DNA of 58,987 bases from Pseudomonadota bacterium. GTDB taxonomy: Bacteria > Desulfobacterota > Desulfobulbia > Desulfobulbales > Desulfocapsaceae. The stretch spans positions 1-58,987 of the forward strand of contig JAHJKP010000024.1 in NCBI GenBank assembly GCA_018821985.1, given 5' to 3'. Positions 4,053-24,062 of the stretch are shown piece by piece (within the stretch, counting starts at the first letter, position 1; each line of letters begins with the position of its first letter). Under the pieces are notes generated by a model that saw only the letters and a list, made by a program, of their open reading frames with translations, had not been told where the DNA came from and did not search any database. Position numbers and translations under genes: made by a program.

Positions 4053-5228
4053 ATGAATGAGCCATTGCCTGCAATTGTGCCGACGCCGACTTTGTACCGT
4101 TTGTTTCTGGCTTTTTTACGGTTGGGCACAACCGCCTTTGGCGGCCCGGCCATGATTGCCTATATCCGTGATCTGGCTGTTGGGCGTGAGTGCTGGCTGG
4201 CAAAGGAGGCTTTTCAGGAAGGAGTAGCCCTCTGCCAGACGATTCCAGGGGCCACGGCTATGCAGGTTGCAGCCTATGTAGGTCTGCGGGTGCGGGGTGT
4301 ACGGGGGGCCATTGCGAGCTATGTGGGCTTTGGCCTGCCCGCTTTCCTGCTCATGCTATTACTCTCGACGTTGTATGCCCGTACCCATACGCTGCCCCTG
4401 GTTATGGCTGCGTTCAGTGGACTGCAGGCCCTTATTGTCGCAGTGGTTGCCAATGCCACTCTCTCTTTTGGTCGAAGCTCCTTGACCAGTTGGCAACATG
4501 GTGTCATTGCCCTGATGGCCGCAGCGCTTTTCTGGATGGTTGTCCATCCGGTCCTGATCCTTCTCCTGGCCGCATTGCTGGGCATGGCATTGCACAGCAG
4601 GCAGTCTTTGCAGATCACGGCCGGATCGAAGATACACATGCCAGCCCCTTTCCTGCCTCTTGTATGTCTGATTGCGACAAGCGCTGCCGGTTTTGCCCTG
4701 CTGGCTTATTTCAGTCCCGTACTTGCGCAACTGGCGATGCTCATGGCCAGGATTGACCTCATGGCCTTTGGTGGTGGCTTTGCCTCAGTGCCCCTTATGT
4801 TTCATGAGATCGTTGAGCTCCGTGGCTGGCTGGCTGGGACTGCCTTTCTTGACGGAATAGCCCTTGGCCAGTTTACCCCGGGCCCCATTGTGATCACGGC
4901 AACCTTTGTCGGCTATCTGCTTCATGGTTTTTTAGGGTCCTGCGTTGCCACCGTGGCCATGTTTCTTCCGTCCCTGCTCCTGGTGATCGGGTTCGCTCCC
5001 TATTTTTCCCGACTGCGCACCTCTCTCTGGTTCAGACGAGCCCTCTCCGGGGTACTCTGCTCCTTTGTCGGCCTGCTTTTTACGGTCACCATCCGTTTTG
5101 CCCTGCAGGTGCATTGGGACTGGATCCATCTCTTTCTTGGCCTTGCCGCCCTGGTGGCCTTGTTGAAAAAGATTGATATCCTCTGGGTGATTCTTGTGGG
5201 GGCGGCTGTTGCTATTCTCTTTGTGTAA
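4053..5228 (+). CDS. chrA: ChrA-family chromate transporter
   Basis: A 391-residue polytopic membrane protein with two homologous CHR halves (about 15-190 and 200-388). The first carries the family signature FLRLGTTAFGGPAMIAYIRD and GVALCQTIPGATAMQ; the second carries the matching MAFGGGFASVPLMFHEIVE and GIALGQFTPGPIVITATFVGY. Length and the FGGP and PGP motifs fit long-chain ChrA, which exports chromate in exchange for other ions in characterised members. It starts 16 bases after gspB and opens a run of transporters for anions (TSUP, fluoride channel). Substrate could be another oxyanion; the family is certain, the substrate is not. Confidence 0.9.
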   Translation: MNEPLPAIVPTPTLYRLFLAFLRLGTTAFGGPAMIAYIRDLAVGRECWLAKEAFQEGVALCQTIPGATAMQVAAYVGLRVRGVRGAIASYVGFGLPAFLLMLLLSTLYARTHTLPLVMAAFSGLQALIVAVVANATLSFGRSSLTSWQHGVIALMAAALFWMVVHPVLILLLAALLGMALHSRQSLQITAGSKIHMPAPFLPLVCLIATSAAGFALLAYFSPVLAQLAMLMARIDLMAFGGGFASVPLMFHEIVELRGWLAGTAFLDGIALGQFTPGPIVITATFVGYLLHGFLGSCVATVAMFLPSLLLVIGFAPYFSRLRTSLWFRRALSGVLCSFVGLLFTVTIRFALQVHWDWIHLFLGLAALVALLKKIDILWVILVGAAVAILFV

Positions 5229-5279
5229 CAATTTTAATCCGGCCAGAATTTTTCTGCCGCAAACCCTCTGGAGGAATTC

Positions 5280-5489
5280 ATGTCTCGTCTGATCTGTTAC
5301 TGTTTTGGTTATACTGAGGAAGATCTGTGCCAGGATGTCCTGCGACATGGCCGATCGCTGATCATGGAACGTATCCTTGCCGAGAGCAAAGACGGTCACT
5401 GCCGCTGCGCGGAGACAAACCCGTCTGGCCGCTGATGTCTGGGGCAGGTCCGCCAGGTGGTGGACGCGATTTTACAAACCATTGCTTAG
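5280..5489 (+). CDS. BFD-like [2Fe-2S] protein with in-frame UGA, probable selenoprotein
   Basis: A 69-residue reading frame with GGAGG six bases before its ATG. It starts MSRLICYCFGYTEEDLCQDV and resembles the small BFD/CopZ-N-type [2Fe-2S] proteins. Cysteines sit at positions 6 and 8 and at 41 and 43 (HCRCAETNPSGR). In the relatives I know, the sequence then reads CCLG; here the first of that cysteine pair is codon 52, a TGA at 5433-5435, followed in frame by CLGQVRQVVDAILQTIA and a TAG stop. Directly after the TGA lies a SECIS-like hairpin (5448-5465). Selenocysteine insertion is therefore the best reading. The alternative is a nonsense mutation giving a 51-residue product without the CLG end. 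It lies between chrA and a TSUP gene and may bring redox function to that operon. Confidence 0.8.
5448..5465 (+). promoter_or_regulatory. candidate bacterial SECIS element
   Basis: The sequence GTCCGCC-AGGT-GGTGGAC folds into a seven-pair stem (one G-U pair) with the loop AGGT. The loop starts 19 bases after the UGA at 5433-5435. In Escherichia coli fdhF the SelB-binding hairpin also exposes AGGU in its loop, at nearly the same distance downstream of the UGA. The fit in position, loop bases and stem is much better than expected for an accidental stop codon. It lies inside the coding sequence, as bacterial SECIS elements do. Confidence 0.75.
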
Positions 5490-5504: not shown

Positions 5505-6461
5505 ATGTATTTCCCCGTTGCCGGTGTTGAGGTCAACCCGCTGGTGCCACCACTGGTTGCCTTTGTGATTTCCCTGTTCACCTCCATGGGCGGGGTATCC
5601 GGGGCCTTTCTCTTGTTGCCCTTTCAGGTCAGCATGCTCGGCTTCACCAGTCCGGCGGTCAGTTCGACCAATCAGCTGTTCAATATCGTGGCTATTCCCA
5701 GCGGGGTATTCCGTTATATCAGGGAAGGCAGAATGGTCTGGCCCCTGACCTGGATTGTGATTATCGGCACCCTGCCGGGAGTGCTGGTCGGGGCCATCGT
5801 TCGCATCAGATACCTGCCCGACCCGAAGCACTTCAAACTGTTCGTCGGCTTTGTACTGCTCTATATCGGTGGAAAGTTATTAAAAGATCTGCTCCTCAAG
5901 AAAAAAGAAATCGGCCGCCCTTCGACAGAGGAGCGGTTTCAGCGACAACTCAAAAGACAAGTCCAGGCCAAAGAAACAAGTATCCCTGCCCCCGTTGAAC
6001 AACTCTCCCGCGTAACGGTTCAACAATGGACCTTCAGCCGGATTGTTTATGATTTCTGTGGGGAGACCTTTACCGTGAATGCCATTGGAGTCATGGCCCT
6101 CAGCCTGATTGTCGGTATGGTGGGCGGGGTGTATGGTATTGGCGGCGGCGCGATTATTGCCCCGTTTTTCGTTAGTTTCTTCGGACTACCGATCTATACG
6201 GTGGCCGGGGCCACGCTGATGGGCACCCTTGTTACCTCGGTGGCGGGAGTGATATTTTACCAGATGCTGGCGCCATATTACCCCGGGCTGGTGATTACTC
6301 CTGATTGGCTTTTAGGCCTTCTCTTTGGAGTGGGTGGCTTTGCGGGCATGTATTGCGGGGCGCGCTTGCAGAAGTTTGTACCGGCAAAATTCATCAAGTG
6401 GATTCTGGTGCTCTGCCTGCTCTCTACGGCTGGGAAGTATATTGGGCCCTTCCTCTTTTAA
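5505..6461 (+). CDS. TSUP-family (TauE/SafE) anion transporter
   Basis: A 318-residue polytopic membrane protein with the two-repeat TSUP arrangement: an N-terminal half (about 10-125) with VISLFTSMGGVSGAFLLLPFQ, a charged cytoplasmic loop (about 127-165, rich in Lys, Arg and Glu) and a C-terminal half (about 185-318) with IVGMVGGVYGIGGGAIIAPFF. The glycine-rich GGVSG and GIGGG signatures are those of sulfite/sulfoacetate exporters and related carriers. It begins 15 bases after the selenoprotein-like gene and ends 13 bases before the MFS gene, so it is surely in the same operon. Transport of a sulfur oxyanion or organosulfonate is likely from the family, but direction and substrate are not visible. 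Confidence 0.88.
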   Translation: MYFPVAGVEVNPLVPPLVAFVISLFTSMGGVSGAFLLLPFQVSMLGFTSPAVSSTNQLFNIVAIPSGVFRYIREGRMVWPLTWIVIIGTLPGVLVGAIVRIRYLPDPKHFKLFVGFVLLYIGGKLLKDLLLKKKEIGRPSTEERFQRQLKRQVQAKETSIPAPVEQLSRVTVQQWTFSRIVYDFCGETFTVNAIGVMALSLIVGMVGGVYGIGGGAIIAPFFVSFFGLPIYTVAGATLMGTLVTSVAGVIFYQMLAPYYPGLVITPDWLLGLLFGVGGFAGMYCGARLQKFVPAKFIKWILVLCLLSTAGKYIGPFLF

Positions 6462-6474
6462 TGGAGAAACGCTG

Positions 6475-7683
6475 ATGAGAAATGAGAAAACATTTTTCGG
6501 ATTCAGCAGGAATGTCTTTTTTACGGGGCTCGTCAGTTTTTTCATGGATATGAGTTCCGAGATGATCTATCCGCTAGTCCCGCTTTTTCTGACCAGCGTA
6601 CTGGGAATCAATATGTCCATGATCGGCCTGATTGAGGGTATTGCCGAATCAACGGCCAGTCTGCTCAAGGTCTTTTCCGGCTGGTTTTCCGACCGGACCC
6701 GGCAGCGTAAGAATCTGATGCTTGCCGGATATACCATCTCTACCCTGAGCCGGCCTATAATGGCTCTGGCTGGCTCCTGGCAGCAGGTCTTGTCTTCACG
6801 TCTCACTGATCGCTTGGGCAAGGGAATCCGCACTGCCCCACGGGATGCAATCATTGTTGAGTCCACTCAGACTACCCACCTGGGCCGCGCCTTCAGCTTT
6901 CATCGGGCCATGGACACCTTGGGAGCGGTGGTCGGCCCTGCTATAGCCTTTTTTCTCCTGGGGATTTTTAACAATGACTATCGGACGATTTTCTGGCTAT
7001 CCATGGTACCAGGGGTGATTGCGGTCATCTTGATTTTCCTCTTCATTGAGGAGAATAAAAAGCAGCCAACATCCCAGAATGAGCGGCTCAAGTTGACGTT
7101 CAAACATTTTGACTGGAAGGTGAAGTTTTTTATCGTCATTGCGACCCTGTTCGCCCTTGGCAATTCGAGCGATGCCTTTCTGATCCTGCGGGCGCAGCAG
7201 GTTGGTATTCCGGCGATTACGATTCCGGTGGTCTATCTTATGTTCAATCTTGTTTACTCCATGTCGGCTATTCCGGCCGGGATGGCGGCGGATAAATTTG
7301 GCAAGAAGAGGATCATTCTGCTGGGATTCGTTTTGTTTGCCGGACTTTATTATGGCTTCGCGGTTGCCAAAAATGTCTCCGCTATCTGGGTATTATTTGC
7401 TTTATACGGGTTGTTCATGGGGTTTACCGAGGGGATTCAAAAGGCATTTCTGGCAACCATCATACCTCCTGATTTTAAGGCAACTGCCTTTGGAGTCTAT
7501 GCCGCCGCTGTGGGCCTTGCCATGTTGCCGGCCAGCTTGATCGCCGGCTGGCTCTGGGATCATGTTTCTCCGGCCGCGACTTTTTATTTTGGTGCGGCAA
7601 CCGCGATCCTGTCGGCAATCCTCTTTGTCGTGCTGATCATTCTGAGCCGCTATTCGCCACCTTTGACAGTGCCTGCGTCTTAG
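6475..7683 (+). CDS. major facilitator superfamily transporter
   Basis: A 402-residue protein with about 12 hydrophobic segments. The MFS loop 2-3 motif appears as GWFSDRTRQRKNLM near 63-76, and a second-half version is GMAADKFGKKRII near 270. The stretch SRLTDRLGKGIRTAPRDAIIVE is characteristic of a drug/sugar-like MFS group widespread in anaerobes. The ATG at 6475 is used because it follows GGAGAAACGCTG; a longer frame reaching back into the TSUP gene is an artefact. Substrate cannot be told from sequence. Placement after a TSUP gene and before crcB suggests an efflux role. Confidence 0.85.
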   Translation: MRNEKTFFGFSRNVFFTGLVSFFMDMSSEMIYPLVPLFLTSVLGINMSMIGLIEGIAESTASLLKVFSGWFSDRTRQRKNLMLAGYTISTLSRPIMALAGSWQQVLSSRLTDRLGKGIRTAPRDAIIVESTQTTHLGRAFSFHRAMDTLGAVVGPAIAFFLLGIFNNDYRTIFWLSMVPGVIAVILIFLFIEENKKQPTSQNERLKLTFKHFDWKVKFFIVIATLFALGNSSDAFLILRAQQVGIPAITIPVVYLMFNLVYSMSAIPAGMAADKFGKKRIILLGFVLFAGLYYGFAVAKNVSAIWVLFALYGLFMGFTEGIQKAFLATIIPPDFKATAFGVYAAAVGLAMLPASLIAGWLWDHVSPAATFYFGAATAILSAILFVVLIILSRYSPPLTVPAS

Positions 7684-7728
7684 TTTCTGTTTATCGAAAA
7701 TTGGTAATGCTTTTTAAGGAGGAGCTTG

Positions 7729-8103
7729 ATGCAGGTGGTTTTACTTATTGCAGGTTGTGGGGCGCTAGGCTGCGTGGCCCGCTATTTGGTTTCAGGTTGG
7801 GTCTATGACCTGTTGGGGAGGAGTCTTCCTTATGGGACTTTTGTCGTCAATATCCTGGGGGCATTTCTGATCGGCCTGGTCATGGATCTCGGCATGCGGA
7901 GCACTCTGCTGCCGGTCAGTCTTCGTACCGGCATCACCATCGGTTTTCTTGGCGGCTTCACTACCTTTTCCACCTTCAGTTATGAGACGTTCAGGTTATT
8001 GGAGGAGGGGGATTTCGTTGTGGCTTCAGCTAATGTCCTGGTGAGCGTTACCGTCTGTCTTCTCTTTACCTGGCTTGGTATGTTGACGGCACGGCTTCTT
8101 TAA
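7729..8103 (+). CDS. crcB: fluoride channel CrcB/FluC
   Basis: A 124-residue four-helix membrane protein. It has the family hallmarks GCVARYLVSGWV at the N-terminus, the polar-track asparagine in VVNILGAFLIG and the GGFTTFSTFSYE motif that lines the fluoride pore. A strong AAGGAGGAG ribosome binding site precedes the ATG at 7729. FluC forms an antiparallel dimer that exports fluoride. No fluoride riboswitch is visible in the 45-base gap before it. The following gene is of the DUF190 family, a common neighbour or fusion partner of CrcB. Confidence 0.93.
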   Translation: MQVVLLIAGCGALGCVARYLVSGWVYDLLGRSLPYGTFVVNILGAFLIGLVMDLGMRSTLLPVSLRTGITIGFLGGFTTFSTFSYETFRLLEEGDFVVASANVLVSVTVCLLFTWLGMLTARLL

Positions 8104-8131
8104 AGAAACCATAAACAAAATAGGGGTGGTC

Positions 8132-8470
8132 ATGACACGATTCAGCGGTGAAAAGATATTGATGCGGATATTCCTGGGTGAGAACGACAAAATTGGCCAT
8201 CGTCCACTTTATGAGGTACTGGTTGAATTTTTCAGAACCGAAGGCTTTGCTGGGGCTACGGTTCTGCGGGGTATCGCCGGATTTGGCGCCCACAGTGTCT
8301 TTCATACCGACAAACTATTACGGCTTTCACTCGACCTTCCCATTATTATTGAAGTGGTCGAGAGCCAGGAAAAGATCGATGAGGTCATGCCCCGCATCGA
8401 TGAGATGATGAATGGAGGTATGATTACCTTGGAAAAGACCACGGTAGTTCGCTACAGTCACAAAAATTAA
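8132..8470 (+). CDS. DUF190 family protein
   Basis: A 112-residue cytoplasmic protein with the DUF190 pattern: LMRIFLGENDKIGHRPLYEVLVE, then RTEGFAGATVLRGIAGFGAHS and DLPIIIEVVES. DUF190 has a P-II-like ferredoxin fold and is repeatedly found next to crcB, which makes a regulatory or accessory role in fluoride export plausible. ATG at 8132 is preferred over a GTG six bases earlier because AGGGG is better spaced. It closes the operon that begins at gspA or chrA; an inverted repeat at 8525-8572 follows. Confidence 0.85.
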   Translation: MTRFSGEKILMRIFLGENDKIGHRPLYEVLVEFFRTEGFAGATVLRGIAGFGAHSVFHTDKLLRLSLDLPIIIEVVESQEKIDEVMPRIDEMMNGGMITLEKTTVVRYSHKN

Positions 8471-8751: not shown

Positions 8752-9141
8752 TTAAAAGAGACCCAGCAACTTCGTGCCGAGAATAATCAAACCTGCACAG
8801 GCGACTCGTTTAACCATTACAGGACTCAATTTCTTGGCAATCTTTGGGCCGATGTAGCCGCCGAGTATGGCTGCCGGAAACATGACCAGAAAGAGAATCA
8901 GATCAAAATTGCCAAACTGATAATGGCGCATAGTGCCCATGGCGGTGTTGAAGAAGATTGCCAGCAGTGAACTGCCGACAACGATATACATGGGCAGCCG
9001 CAGTCCGAGTGTCATCAACGGCACCATGAATGGCCCGCCGCCAAATCCGAACATGGATGACATGATGGCAATGAGAAAACCCCCGATACAGCCAACAAAC
9101 ATATTGGCCTCAAATTCCTGACCCCAAAAATCTACTTTCAT
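8752..9141 (-). CDS. C-terminal half of a split TSUP transporter
   Basis: A 129-residue protein with about four membrane helices, equal to only one of the two repeats of a TSUP carrier. The family signature is present as MFVGCIGGFLIAIMSSMFGFGGGPFMVP, and the end GLIILGTKLLGLF matches the usual TSUP C-terminus. A clean GGAGGAATCC site precedes the ATG at 9141. It lies 27 bases after the 420-residue gene that holds the other repeat, so the two products probably assemble into one transporter. It is not a recent frameshift break: it has its own start, ribosome binding site and an N-terminal leader MKVDFWGQEFEANM. Confidence 0.82.
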   Translation of the reverse strand: MKVDFWGQEFEANMFVGCIGGFLIAIMSSMFGFGGGPFMVPLMTLGLRLPMYIVVGSSLLAIFFNTAMGTMRHYQFGNFDLILFLVMFPAAILGGYIGPKIAKKLSPVMVKRVACAGLIILGTKLLGLF

Positions 9142-9168
9142 AATGGATTCCTCCAGATAAGTTTCTGT

Positions 9169-10431
9169 TTAACCTTTTGCCTTAGCAGCTTCTGCTGCCC
9201 GTTTCTTGAACTCTTTCAAGATCGCCTGTTCTTTCTTGTTGTTAGCAAGATAGCCAGGAGTTGTCTGCCAGAACATTAAAGCAGCCAGTATCAGAAGAAC
9301 CCACCCGAAGAGAAATTTGAACTGATCCAAGGTGATCATCTCAGTCAGTTTCGGACCGATAAATCCACCCACCAGCATGGCGCAACCAATACTGCAGCCG
9401 AGTTTCCAGTTGATGAATTTAATCTTGGAGTAATTCATAATTCCTGTACCCTGAGCAAAAAGCACGGTGGGCATAACTGTTCCGGCCACGACGGTATGAG
9501 GCAGGGGGAAGAACATAATCAAGAGGGGGTTAAGAATAAATCCACCGCCTGCGCCCATCAGGACACCGAAAATAGTGACAGCCGATGCAAGGAGAAAGGG
9601 CCAGAGTATGTTGATGCTGGTACCGGCTGTACTTAGATAAACAGTGGGAAAAGCGATCTTGTTTTCAAAAGATGCCACTTCACTGGTGACTTTTTTGACC
9701 GTTTCCTTGTCTCCTTCTTTGATCCGCTCGGTGACGGCAGTTACTCTTGCACTGTATTTACCGGGCGCCAGGCCTGAACGAATACTGACCTTTGCCGAGT
9801 ACGAACCATCAGGGGCTGTTTCGACCTTGGCGGACAGCAGGTTGCCGACACTGACAAAGCGTGTTTTCACCAGCTTCATCGATTCACGCTTACTGGCTTT
9901 TTCGTCCATGGGAGGCAGCAAGGTGCCGCGTGATCCAAGAATACTGGCCATGATTGTGGCCTGATAATTGTCAATCTGAATCTTGGCCGGGACGGTGTAC
10001 GCTGCATCGGCACCGATTTCTTTCAGGACCTCAGAATATTTCCAACTTTTGCCTGCCGCCTTGGCCTTATCAATTGCCCCAGCCATTTCTACAGGAGCAA
10101 CAATTTTATAAAAAGCCGGCATGTCTTTGGTAATATAAAATTTATAGGGAATTATGCCTGTTTTAGGATCTTTTTTTCCATCAAATCGATTGGCCTTGAC
10201 GGTTTTTTCAGCAGACCAGAGTTCGATATAGACCTTGGAGCCAGCCGGGGCCTTTCCGGAAATGACAAAATCTCCACCGTTATCCAGGGAGGTTTTATCA
10301 AGGTTGATGGTTGGGGCATTGGCGTCGGCACCGGCAGCTTCAACTGCAGCTTGTTCGGCTCGCGTCGGCGGAGCGAAAAGTAAGACCATTGCCAGGGCCA
10401 TTATTGGTAATACACGAAACTTGATGTTCAT
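9169..10431 (-). CDS. periplasmic-domain fusion to the N-terminal half of a TSUP transporter
   Basis: A 420-residue protein in three parts. First comes a signal-anchor or cleaved signal peptide (about 1-27, ending near PTRAEQA). Then about 240 residues lie outside the membrane, with beta-rich Ig-like stretches such as GDFVISGKAPAGSKVYIELWS and DGSYSAKVSIRSGLAPGKYSAR. Last is a four-helix TSUP half (about 280-395) with GVLMGAGGGFILNPLL, followed by a Lys/Ala-rich cytoplasmic tail. The second ATG (10431) is chosen because GGAGG lies eight bases upstream; the first ATG (10440) is only three bases from it. The extracellular domain may bind or deliver the substrate. The partner half is the next gene. 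A sigma-54 promoter lies about 160 bases upstream. Confidence 0.82.
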   Translation of the reverse strand: MNIKFRVLPIMALAMVLLFAPPTRAEQAAVEAAGADANAPTINLDKTSLDNGGDFVISGKAPAGSKVYIELWSAEKTVKANRFDGKKDPKTGIIPYKFYITKDMPAFYKIVAPVEMAGAIDKAKAAGKSWKYSEVLKEIGADAAYTVPAKIQIDNYQATIMASILGSRGTLLPPMDEKASKRESMKLVKTRFVSVGNLLSAKVETAPDGSYSAKVSIRSGLAPGKYSARVTAVTERIKEGDKETVKKVTSEVASFENKIAFPTVYLSTAGTSINILWPFLLASAVTIFGVLMGAGGGFILNPLLIMFFPLPHTVVAGTVMPTVLFAQGTGIMNYSKIKFINWKLGCSIGCAMLVGGFIGPKLTEMITLDQFKFLFGWVLLILAALMFWQTTPGYLANNKKEQAILKEFKKRAAEAAKAKG

Positions 10432-10597
10432 ATCATCCACCTCCTGTCTAAAATGAGAGTGTCTTCGAAAGAAGACGGTGTTGTTTGAATTTCAATATAC
10501 TGACCCATTTGACCTCCTTTGTGGAACTTCACTATCTGACAAGCACAGCCGGTTTATAAATACAAAACATTAGTGCCTTATATGGTGTTGTTTTGAT

Positions 10598-23966: not shown

Positions 23967-24017
23967 TTTTCAAACTGGATAGGGTAGCTCCCGAAAAGCC
24001 GTTACCTTGACGGCCTG
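23967..24017. repeat. 51-bp internal repeat, left copy
   Basis: This repeat starts four bases after the integrase stop and is matched at 28466-28516 in the same orientation with three mismatches. It includes a small hairpin, GCCGT-TACCTTG-ACGGC. The two copies bracket the whole replication module. There is no T run, so it is not a plain terminator; a replication, packaging or recombination site is possible. Confidence 0.7.
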
Positions 24018-24062
24018 CCAGTTTGATTTTTATCAAGGACAACCATAAGGAGGTTGTGAAAT

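Follow-up and report, generated by a model that had tools for sequence, protein, structure and literature searches.

Two reviews list selenoproteins that carry a CopZ-like [2Fe-2S] domain. A CopZ-family [2Fe-2S] selenoprotein is tabulated as form 1 in PMC13188914 (cd10141, motif GxUC, WP_245779778.1) and is listed without a motif in PMC9312934. The gene at positions 5280–5489 of the window, which is the whole stretch of 58,987 nucleotides analysed here, encodes a predicted protein that shares this domain and the motif in the form GRUC. Since the table of PMC13188914 already contains the GxUC selenoprotein, the gene fits the form 1 entry by motif and description and is no new family, which removes the novelty implied by an earlier note on this DNA. 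The form 1 rows of both tables carry no operon, SECIS or fusion data, and the likeness was judged from description and motif.

As proxies for cd10141 we used the NCBIfam model NF047645 (CopZ_Nterm_CC), which the protein matched with 54 bits (E 2e-14; below the cut-off of 100 and over model positions 86–137 of 138 only), and 2hu9, the N-terminal domain of Archaeoglobus fulgidus CopZ, which was the one solved structure with clear sequence similarity (E 5.6e-4; 0.0025 with a profile). Form 2 of PMC13188914, the Csac_0668 family CopZ_Nterm_CU (NF045877), has a homologous domain in which Sec takes one place of the Cys pair. The table gives the motif of this form as CU, which makes Sec the second residue of the pair, whereas Sec comes first in the window protein; the match to this model reached 32.9 bits (cut-off 190) and covered model positions 98–160 of 161 only. 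With 12.8 bits (E 0.16), Pfam Fer2_BFD stayed below its gathering threshold of 26.

A. fulgidus CopZ and NF047645 have the TNPSGRCC/TNPSGRUC region and the CYC motif in common with the window protein. They differ from it by Cys in place of Sec and by an extra N-terminal part, which in A. fulgidus CopZ presumably contains a zinc site; the window protein corresponds to the iron-sulfur half only. An AlphaFold model of the 69-residue protein (mean pLDDT 93.8) gave eight Foldseek matches, all with E >1. 2hu9 was not among these eight; the top three were Bfd ferredoxins (probability 0.63–0.66), and the predicted fold resembled that of Bfd (6e6r, 4e6k) with TM-scores to the target of 0.68–0.70 at 16–18% identity. 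The ligand pattern of Bfd is CxC...CxxC, unlike that predicted for the window protein. A viral structure library returned nothing below E 2.6. The named model NF045683, a MerT/CopZ fusion-like heavy metal transport selenoprotein, joins CopZ-type and mercury-type parts; it was not among the matches of the window protein and matched a plasmid protein weakly (54.3 of 375 bits).

The main text of PMC2398784 (2008), which PMC13188914 cites for the CopZ-type family, makes no mention of CopZ, copper chaperone, 2Fe-2S, BFD or Fe-S. PMC5029168 and PMC12013277 contained none of the terms sought, and PMC5322559 contained one unrelated CopZ passage. Literature searches for selenoprotein with BFD-like and 2Fe-2S, and for MerA joined with mercuric reductase and BFD-like, found no paper; where selenoprotein, mercuric reductase and 2Fe-2S were combined, the reviews PMC13188914 and PMC9312934 were the sole results.

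Reading frame and gene neighbourhood

The frame starts with ATG and runs through 51 codons, a single in-frame TGA and 17 sense codons to a TAG, as the earlier note had described. The C-terminus of the predicted read-through product is GRUCLGQVRQVVDAILQTIA. Read with the plain genetic code of table 11, the gene would stop at 51 residues. The features of the locus are the following.

5280..5489, plus strand: predicted stand-alone CopZ/BFD-like [2Fe-2S] selenoprotein gene, 69 residues, Sec52, ending in TAG
5270..5274, plus strand: Shine-Dalgarno-like GGAGG, 5 nt ahead of the ATG, from sequence
5433..5435, plus strand: predicted Sec codon UGA, codon 52, first position of the Cys-Cys pair, from the frame and homologue comparison
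5448..5465, plus strand: predicted bSECIS hairpin, 7 bp, AGGU loop starting 19 nt after the UGA
4053..5228, plus strand: chromate transporter ChrA (Pfam 264.6 bits; TIGR00937 309.9 bits, above cut-off)
5505..6461, plus strand: TauE/SafE-family permease, context gene; relatives lie within 4 kb at 23 of the 70 places surveyed, of which the window is one
6475..7683, plus strand: MFS transporter, context gene
7726..8103, plus strand: CrcB-like protein, context gene
8126..8470, plus strand: DUF190 protein, context gene

The gene order is thus chrA, selenoprotein gene, tauE, MFS gene, crcB and DUF190. This agrees with the transporter operon setting proposed earlier, with chrA upstream and the other four genes downstream. 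On the minus strand at 8752–10440, two adjacent ORFs match opposite halves of the TauE family, one of them with a long N-terminal extension, and are possibly a split permease. An int-alpA RNA at 23972–24038 (Rfam RF02996, 56.4 bits) suggests an integrated element.

Codon 52, the hairpin and the selenocysteine machinery

A homologue scan with one genome per species yielded 69 loci. At codon 52, 65 of them had an in-frame TGA and three had Cys (L080, L086 and L087); in L083 the TGA lay behind a frame break. The search patterns carried Cys at this codon, so that any bias would favour Cys. The earlier note had placed the TGA at the first Cys of an expected Cys-Cys pair and had proposed an alignment of homologues at this codon as a check; the three Cys loci and the 65 TGA loci bear out this assignment. 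A survey of the same class covered 257 genomes, and 116 of them gave 125 matches in all. Exactly one stop, a TGA, was present in 118 of the matches, spread over 111 genomes, and the Sec form hence dominates this CopZ-type family in the searched class. Ten of the 118, the window's own gene included, were positioned, and all ten had the TGA at codon 52. The seven matches without a stop comprised four that end before codon 52 and three weak ones (31.6–35.5 bits). Plasmid relatives detected by tblastn numbered 13, all below 60% identity, and the four that were opened had Cys-Cys at the place of codon 52.

Downstream of the UGA, nucleotides 5448–5454 and 5459–5465 can form a stem of seven base pairs closed by an AGGU loop 19 nt past the UGA, with a calculated energy of −11.0 kcal/mol. 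The hairpin satisfies all bSECIS rules printed in PMC13188914, which are a loop of 3–9 nt, at least 4 bp, a G within the first two loop bases, a spacing of 16–37 nt and an energy of −7.5 or lower. The seven-pair stem and loop reported in the earlier note are therefore present, and their position is conserved in homologues. The SECIS search suggested there had a divided outcome: the bSECIS rules apply, and an Rfam search at the site gave no SECIS family match, its one match (3.6 bits) being chance. As a single sequence, the window had an ordinary folding energy in comparison with shuffles (z −0.50, −1.17 and −0.55 for three stretches).

Comparison across the 66 UGA sequences (window and 65 loci) revealed a hairpin with at least 4 bp and a G as first or second loop base at a spacing of 18 or 19 in 65 of them, L061 being the exception. 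None of the three Cys homologues had a qualifying hairpin at this spacing. The best hairpin at a spacing of 16–37 reached −7.5 kcal/mol in 51 of the 66 sequences, with 3.3 expected from synonymous recoding, and for 53 of the 66 the recodings were equally stable in fewer than 5% of draws; this control drew 500 synonymous recodings per peptide from the codon frequencies of three genes in the window, not from each species' own. Among 59 distinct rows, 91.5% of the stem cells were paired, compared with 31–60% in slid controls and 89.4% in column shuffles, so that the pairing mostly reflects conservation. Double-changed stem cells numbered 7 versus 1.0 in shuffles (reached by 0 of 500), and stem pairs with double changes 3 versus 0.9 (reached by 29 of 500); the loop-closing pair was absent in 23 of the 59 rows. 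Synonymous divergence between the window and 18 relatives fell to a pS of 0.024 over the stem, compared with 0.499 upstream of the UGA. In the same comparison, pN/pS was 0.43 behind the UGA and 0.20 upstream; the tail is under looser constraint, with a ratio that nonetheless stays below 1. Proof of the predicted selenoprotein gene is thus comparative and does not lie in the folding of the single sequence. Two UGA-bearing copies per genome occur in one strain (L038 and L039) and in one MAG (L056 and L061), where L056 retains the standard hairpin that L061 lacks.

The genome of the window (3.34 Mb, 99.85% complete) contains selA (628.5 bits), selB (391.5), tRNA-Sec (58.7) and selD (380), all above cut-off, in line with the check for selA, selB, selC and selD proposed earlier. 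The selD match itself holds one in-frame TGA. Of 14 control genomes, 5 also passed the cut-off of the tRNA-Sec model. The score alone is therefore no proof, and the anticodon loop, CUUCAAA, which fits the reading of UGA, carries weight. ARAGORN did not call the tRNA-Sec that the Rfam model called. Across the class, selA (E 1e-60) was detected in 211 of 257 genomes: 99 of these belong to the 111 that bear a TGA, and 112 to the 146 without a TGA match; the association (Fisher p 0.013) is weak because selA is common throughout the class, and the species are related and not independent. At this threshold, selA was missing from 12 TGA-bearing genomes. Repeating the search at E 1e-3 in eight of the 12 gave nothing in seven and a 54-bit fragment in G107. 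Six of these eight had selB and six had tRNA-Sec; in G156, selA, selB and tRNA-Sec were all not found. SepSecS as a substitute for selA was found in none of six genomes (five selA-less ones and the window's own). In G170, the relative of the gene beside selA begins at a contig end, and in two other selA-less genomes the stretch near the relative of the selA-adjacent gene reads N. Some of the missing sel genes may thus reflect contig ends or masked stretches, and we draw no conclusion from the selA absences.

One might read the TGA as a real stop that yields a 51-residue product, or the gene as decaying, and the unexceptional hairpin of the single window sequence would be in keeping with either. 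Both are contradicted by the fact that 65 of 69 loci retain the TGA, followed by the peptide and the hairpin, by the low pS over the stem, by the sel genes of the window's genome and by the single TGA in nearly all class matches; we reject this explanation as having hardly any probability. Decoding of the UGA as Sec is confirmed comparatively, and 5280–5489 very probably functions as a gene for a CopZ-family [2Fe-2S] selenoprotein of the GxUC form. The BFD-like [2Fe-2S] selenoprotein predicted by the earlier note is therefore supported by homologues and sel genes.

Sec52 and metal(loid) genes near the relatives

In an alignment of 67 rows, which omits L025, L083 and L085 of the 69 loci, the invariant positions include Cys6, Cys8, Cys43, Sec/Cys52 and Cys53, and Cys41 is conserved in at least 90%. 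Alignment with 2hu9 matches TNPSGRUC to TNPSGRCC and pairs Sec52 with chain position 118 and Cys53 with position 119. The cluster ligands of A. fulgidus CopZ, which we take to be Cys75, Cys77, Cys109 and Cys119, would put Sec next to a ligand, and Sec52 may be a neighbour of the cluster instead of one of its ligands. Sec as a [2Fe-2S] ligand, a possibility raised in the earlier note, is doubtful for this reason.

Neighbouring genes were surveyed by tblastn (E 1e-6, within 4 kb) at 70 places, namely the window and 69 loci, some of them cut by contig ends. Relatives of TauE were found near 23 places, of CrcB and DUF190 near 18 each, of ArsR near 14, of MFS transporters near 13, of a DsbD-like membrane protein near 10, of ACR3 and ArsP near 9 each, of ChrA, ArsC and thioredoxin near 7 each, of HgcA and MerT near 3 each and of MerA near 2. 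These counts are raw, with queries picked from clusters in the same neighbourhoods and without a baseline of random stretches, and closely related loci supply most of those of TauE, CrcB and ChrA, which are not independent. A relative of the arsenic/mercury type (Ars, ACR3, ArsP, Mer or HgcA) lay near 20 of the 70 places, ChrA, TauE or CrcB near 24 and both near 3; neither group occurred within 4 kb in 29 places. One representative each was named by profile, with ACR3 (462.4 bits), HgcA (381.2) and MerA (568.9) above cut-off; ArsP_1 scored 262.5 and MerT 53.9.

The MerA named by profile is part of a fusion. At L040:1806-3476, on one contig of one MAG labelled Myxococcales, the frame of the UGA domain stays open for 504 codons into MerA until a stop is reached. 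In MerA, the place ahead of the catalytic core is normally taken by the NmerA metal-binding domain. Among the plasmid relatives with Cys-Cys, the one from Stanieria adjoins MerF, that from Peribacillus an Hg(II)-responsive MerR and that from Deinococcus a MerR-family gene. A Planctomycetes plasmid relative annotated as MerA consists by profile of CopZ, MerT-like and HMA-type parts, of which only the CopZ model scored above cut-off. This operon and fusion evidence ties the CopZ-type selenoprotein family to metal(loid) handling and is absent from the table rows of PMC13188914 and PMC9312934.

From the ars, mer, hgcA and chrA/tauE/crcB neighbours and the one in-frame MerA fusion we infer a small cytosolic metal(loid) reductase or chaperone, a role to which we give slightly less than an even chance. 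A reductase of this kind would act by one-electron steps, with Sec as an outer soft-metal or redox residue. SelB and Sec-tRNA would decode the UGA at 5433 via the hairpin 5448–5465 and thereby produce the 69-residue BFD-like protein. Cys6, Cys8, Cys43 and Cys53 would hold the [2Fe-2S] cluster. Sec52 would provide an outer selenol and, perhaps aided by Cys41, would bind a soft metal or metalloid ion or reduce it. The cluster would feed electrons to Sec52, and a neighbouring exporter or reductase would then take over the ion. In A. fulgidus CopZ, the cluster domain has been described as mediating Cu(II) reduction (PMC7558416). An outer redox Sec beside a [2Fe-2S] cluster, if this is what Sec52 is, would be directly testable. 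A broader role is tentative and on balance unlikely. In it, the stand-alone Sec-[2Fe-2S] domain would be a general module that uses selenium to capture metal(loid)s and to reduce them by one electron; anaerobic sulfate reducers and Nitrospirae would employ it in the service of their ars, mer, hgcA and chrA/tauE/crcB gene sets, and in L040 it would be built into mercuric reductase ahead of the catalytic core.

Two other roles were weighed against metal(loid) reduction. The protein could be a plain electron-transfer ferredoxin with Sec52 itself as a cluster ligand, as the BFD-like fold of the AlphaFold model in Foldseek and the presence of Sec or Cys at position 52, adjacent to Cys53, in all 67 aligned rows would allow. 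There are, however, five invariant Sec/Cys positions (6, 8, 43, 52 and 53) for four ligands, and the homologous position 118 of A. fulgidus CopZ is presumably no ligand. Moreover, the metal-gene context and the MerA fusion suggest more than electron transfer, so that we regard the ferredoxin as improbable. A selenoprotein engaged in disulfide or peroxide redox chemistry instead of metal handling appears no more probable to us. The DsbD-like and thioredoxin genes counted above, and an MsrA/MsrB protein beside L050, speak for such chemistry. On the other hand, no thioredoxin-like fold appeared among the structure matches, and the places with arsenic or mercury genes are often the same loci as those with DsbD and thioredoxin. 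Metal(loid) reduction or chaperoning, with Sec outside the cluster, is therefore the role we prefer.

HgcA-type genes were noted at three loci. In L084, the selenoprotein gene is closely followed, after ArsR/ACR3 genes, by an HgcA-type mercury methylation corrinoid gene identified by profile (L084:5153-6394), and tblastn located an HgcA-type gene likewise downstream in L066 and L068. The HgcA frame of L084 appears to start with an extra Cys-rich stretch.
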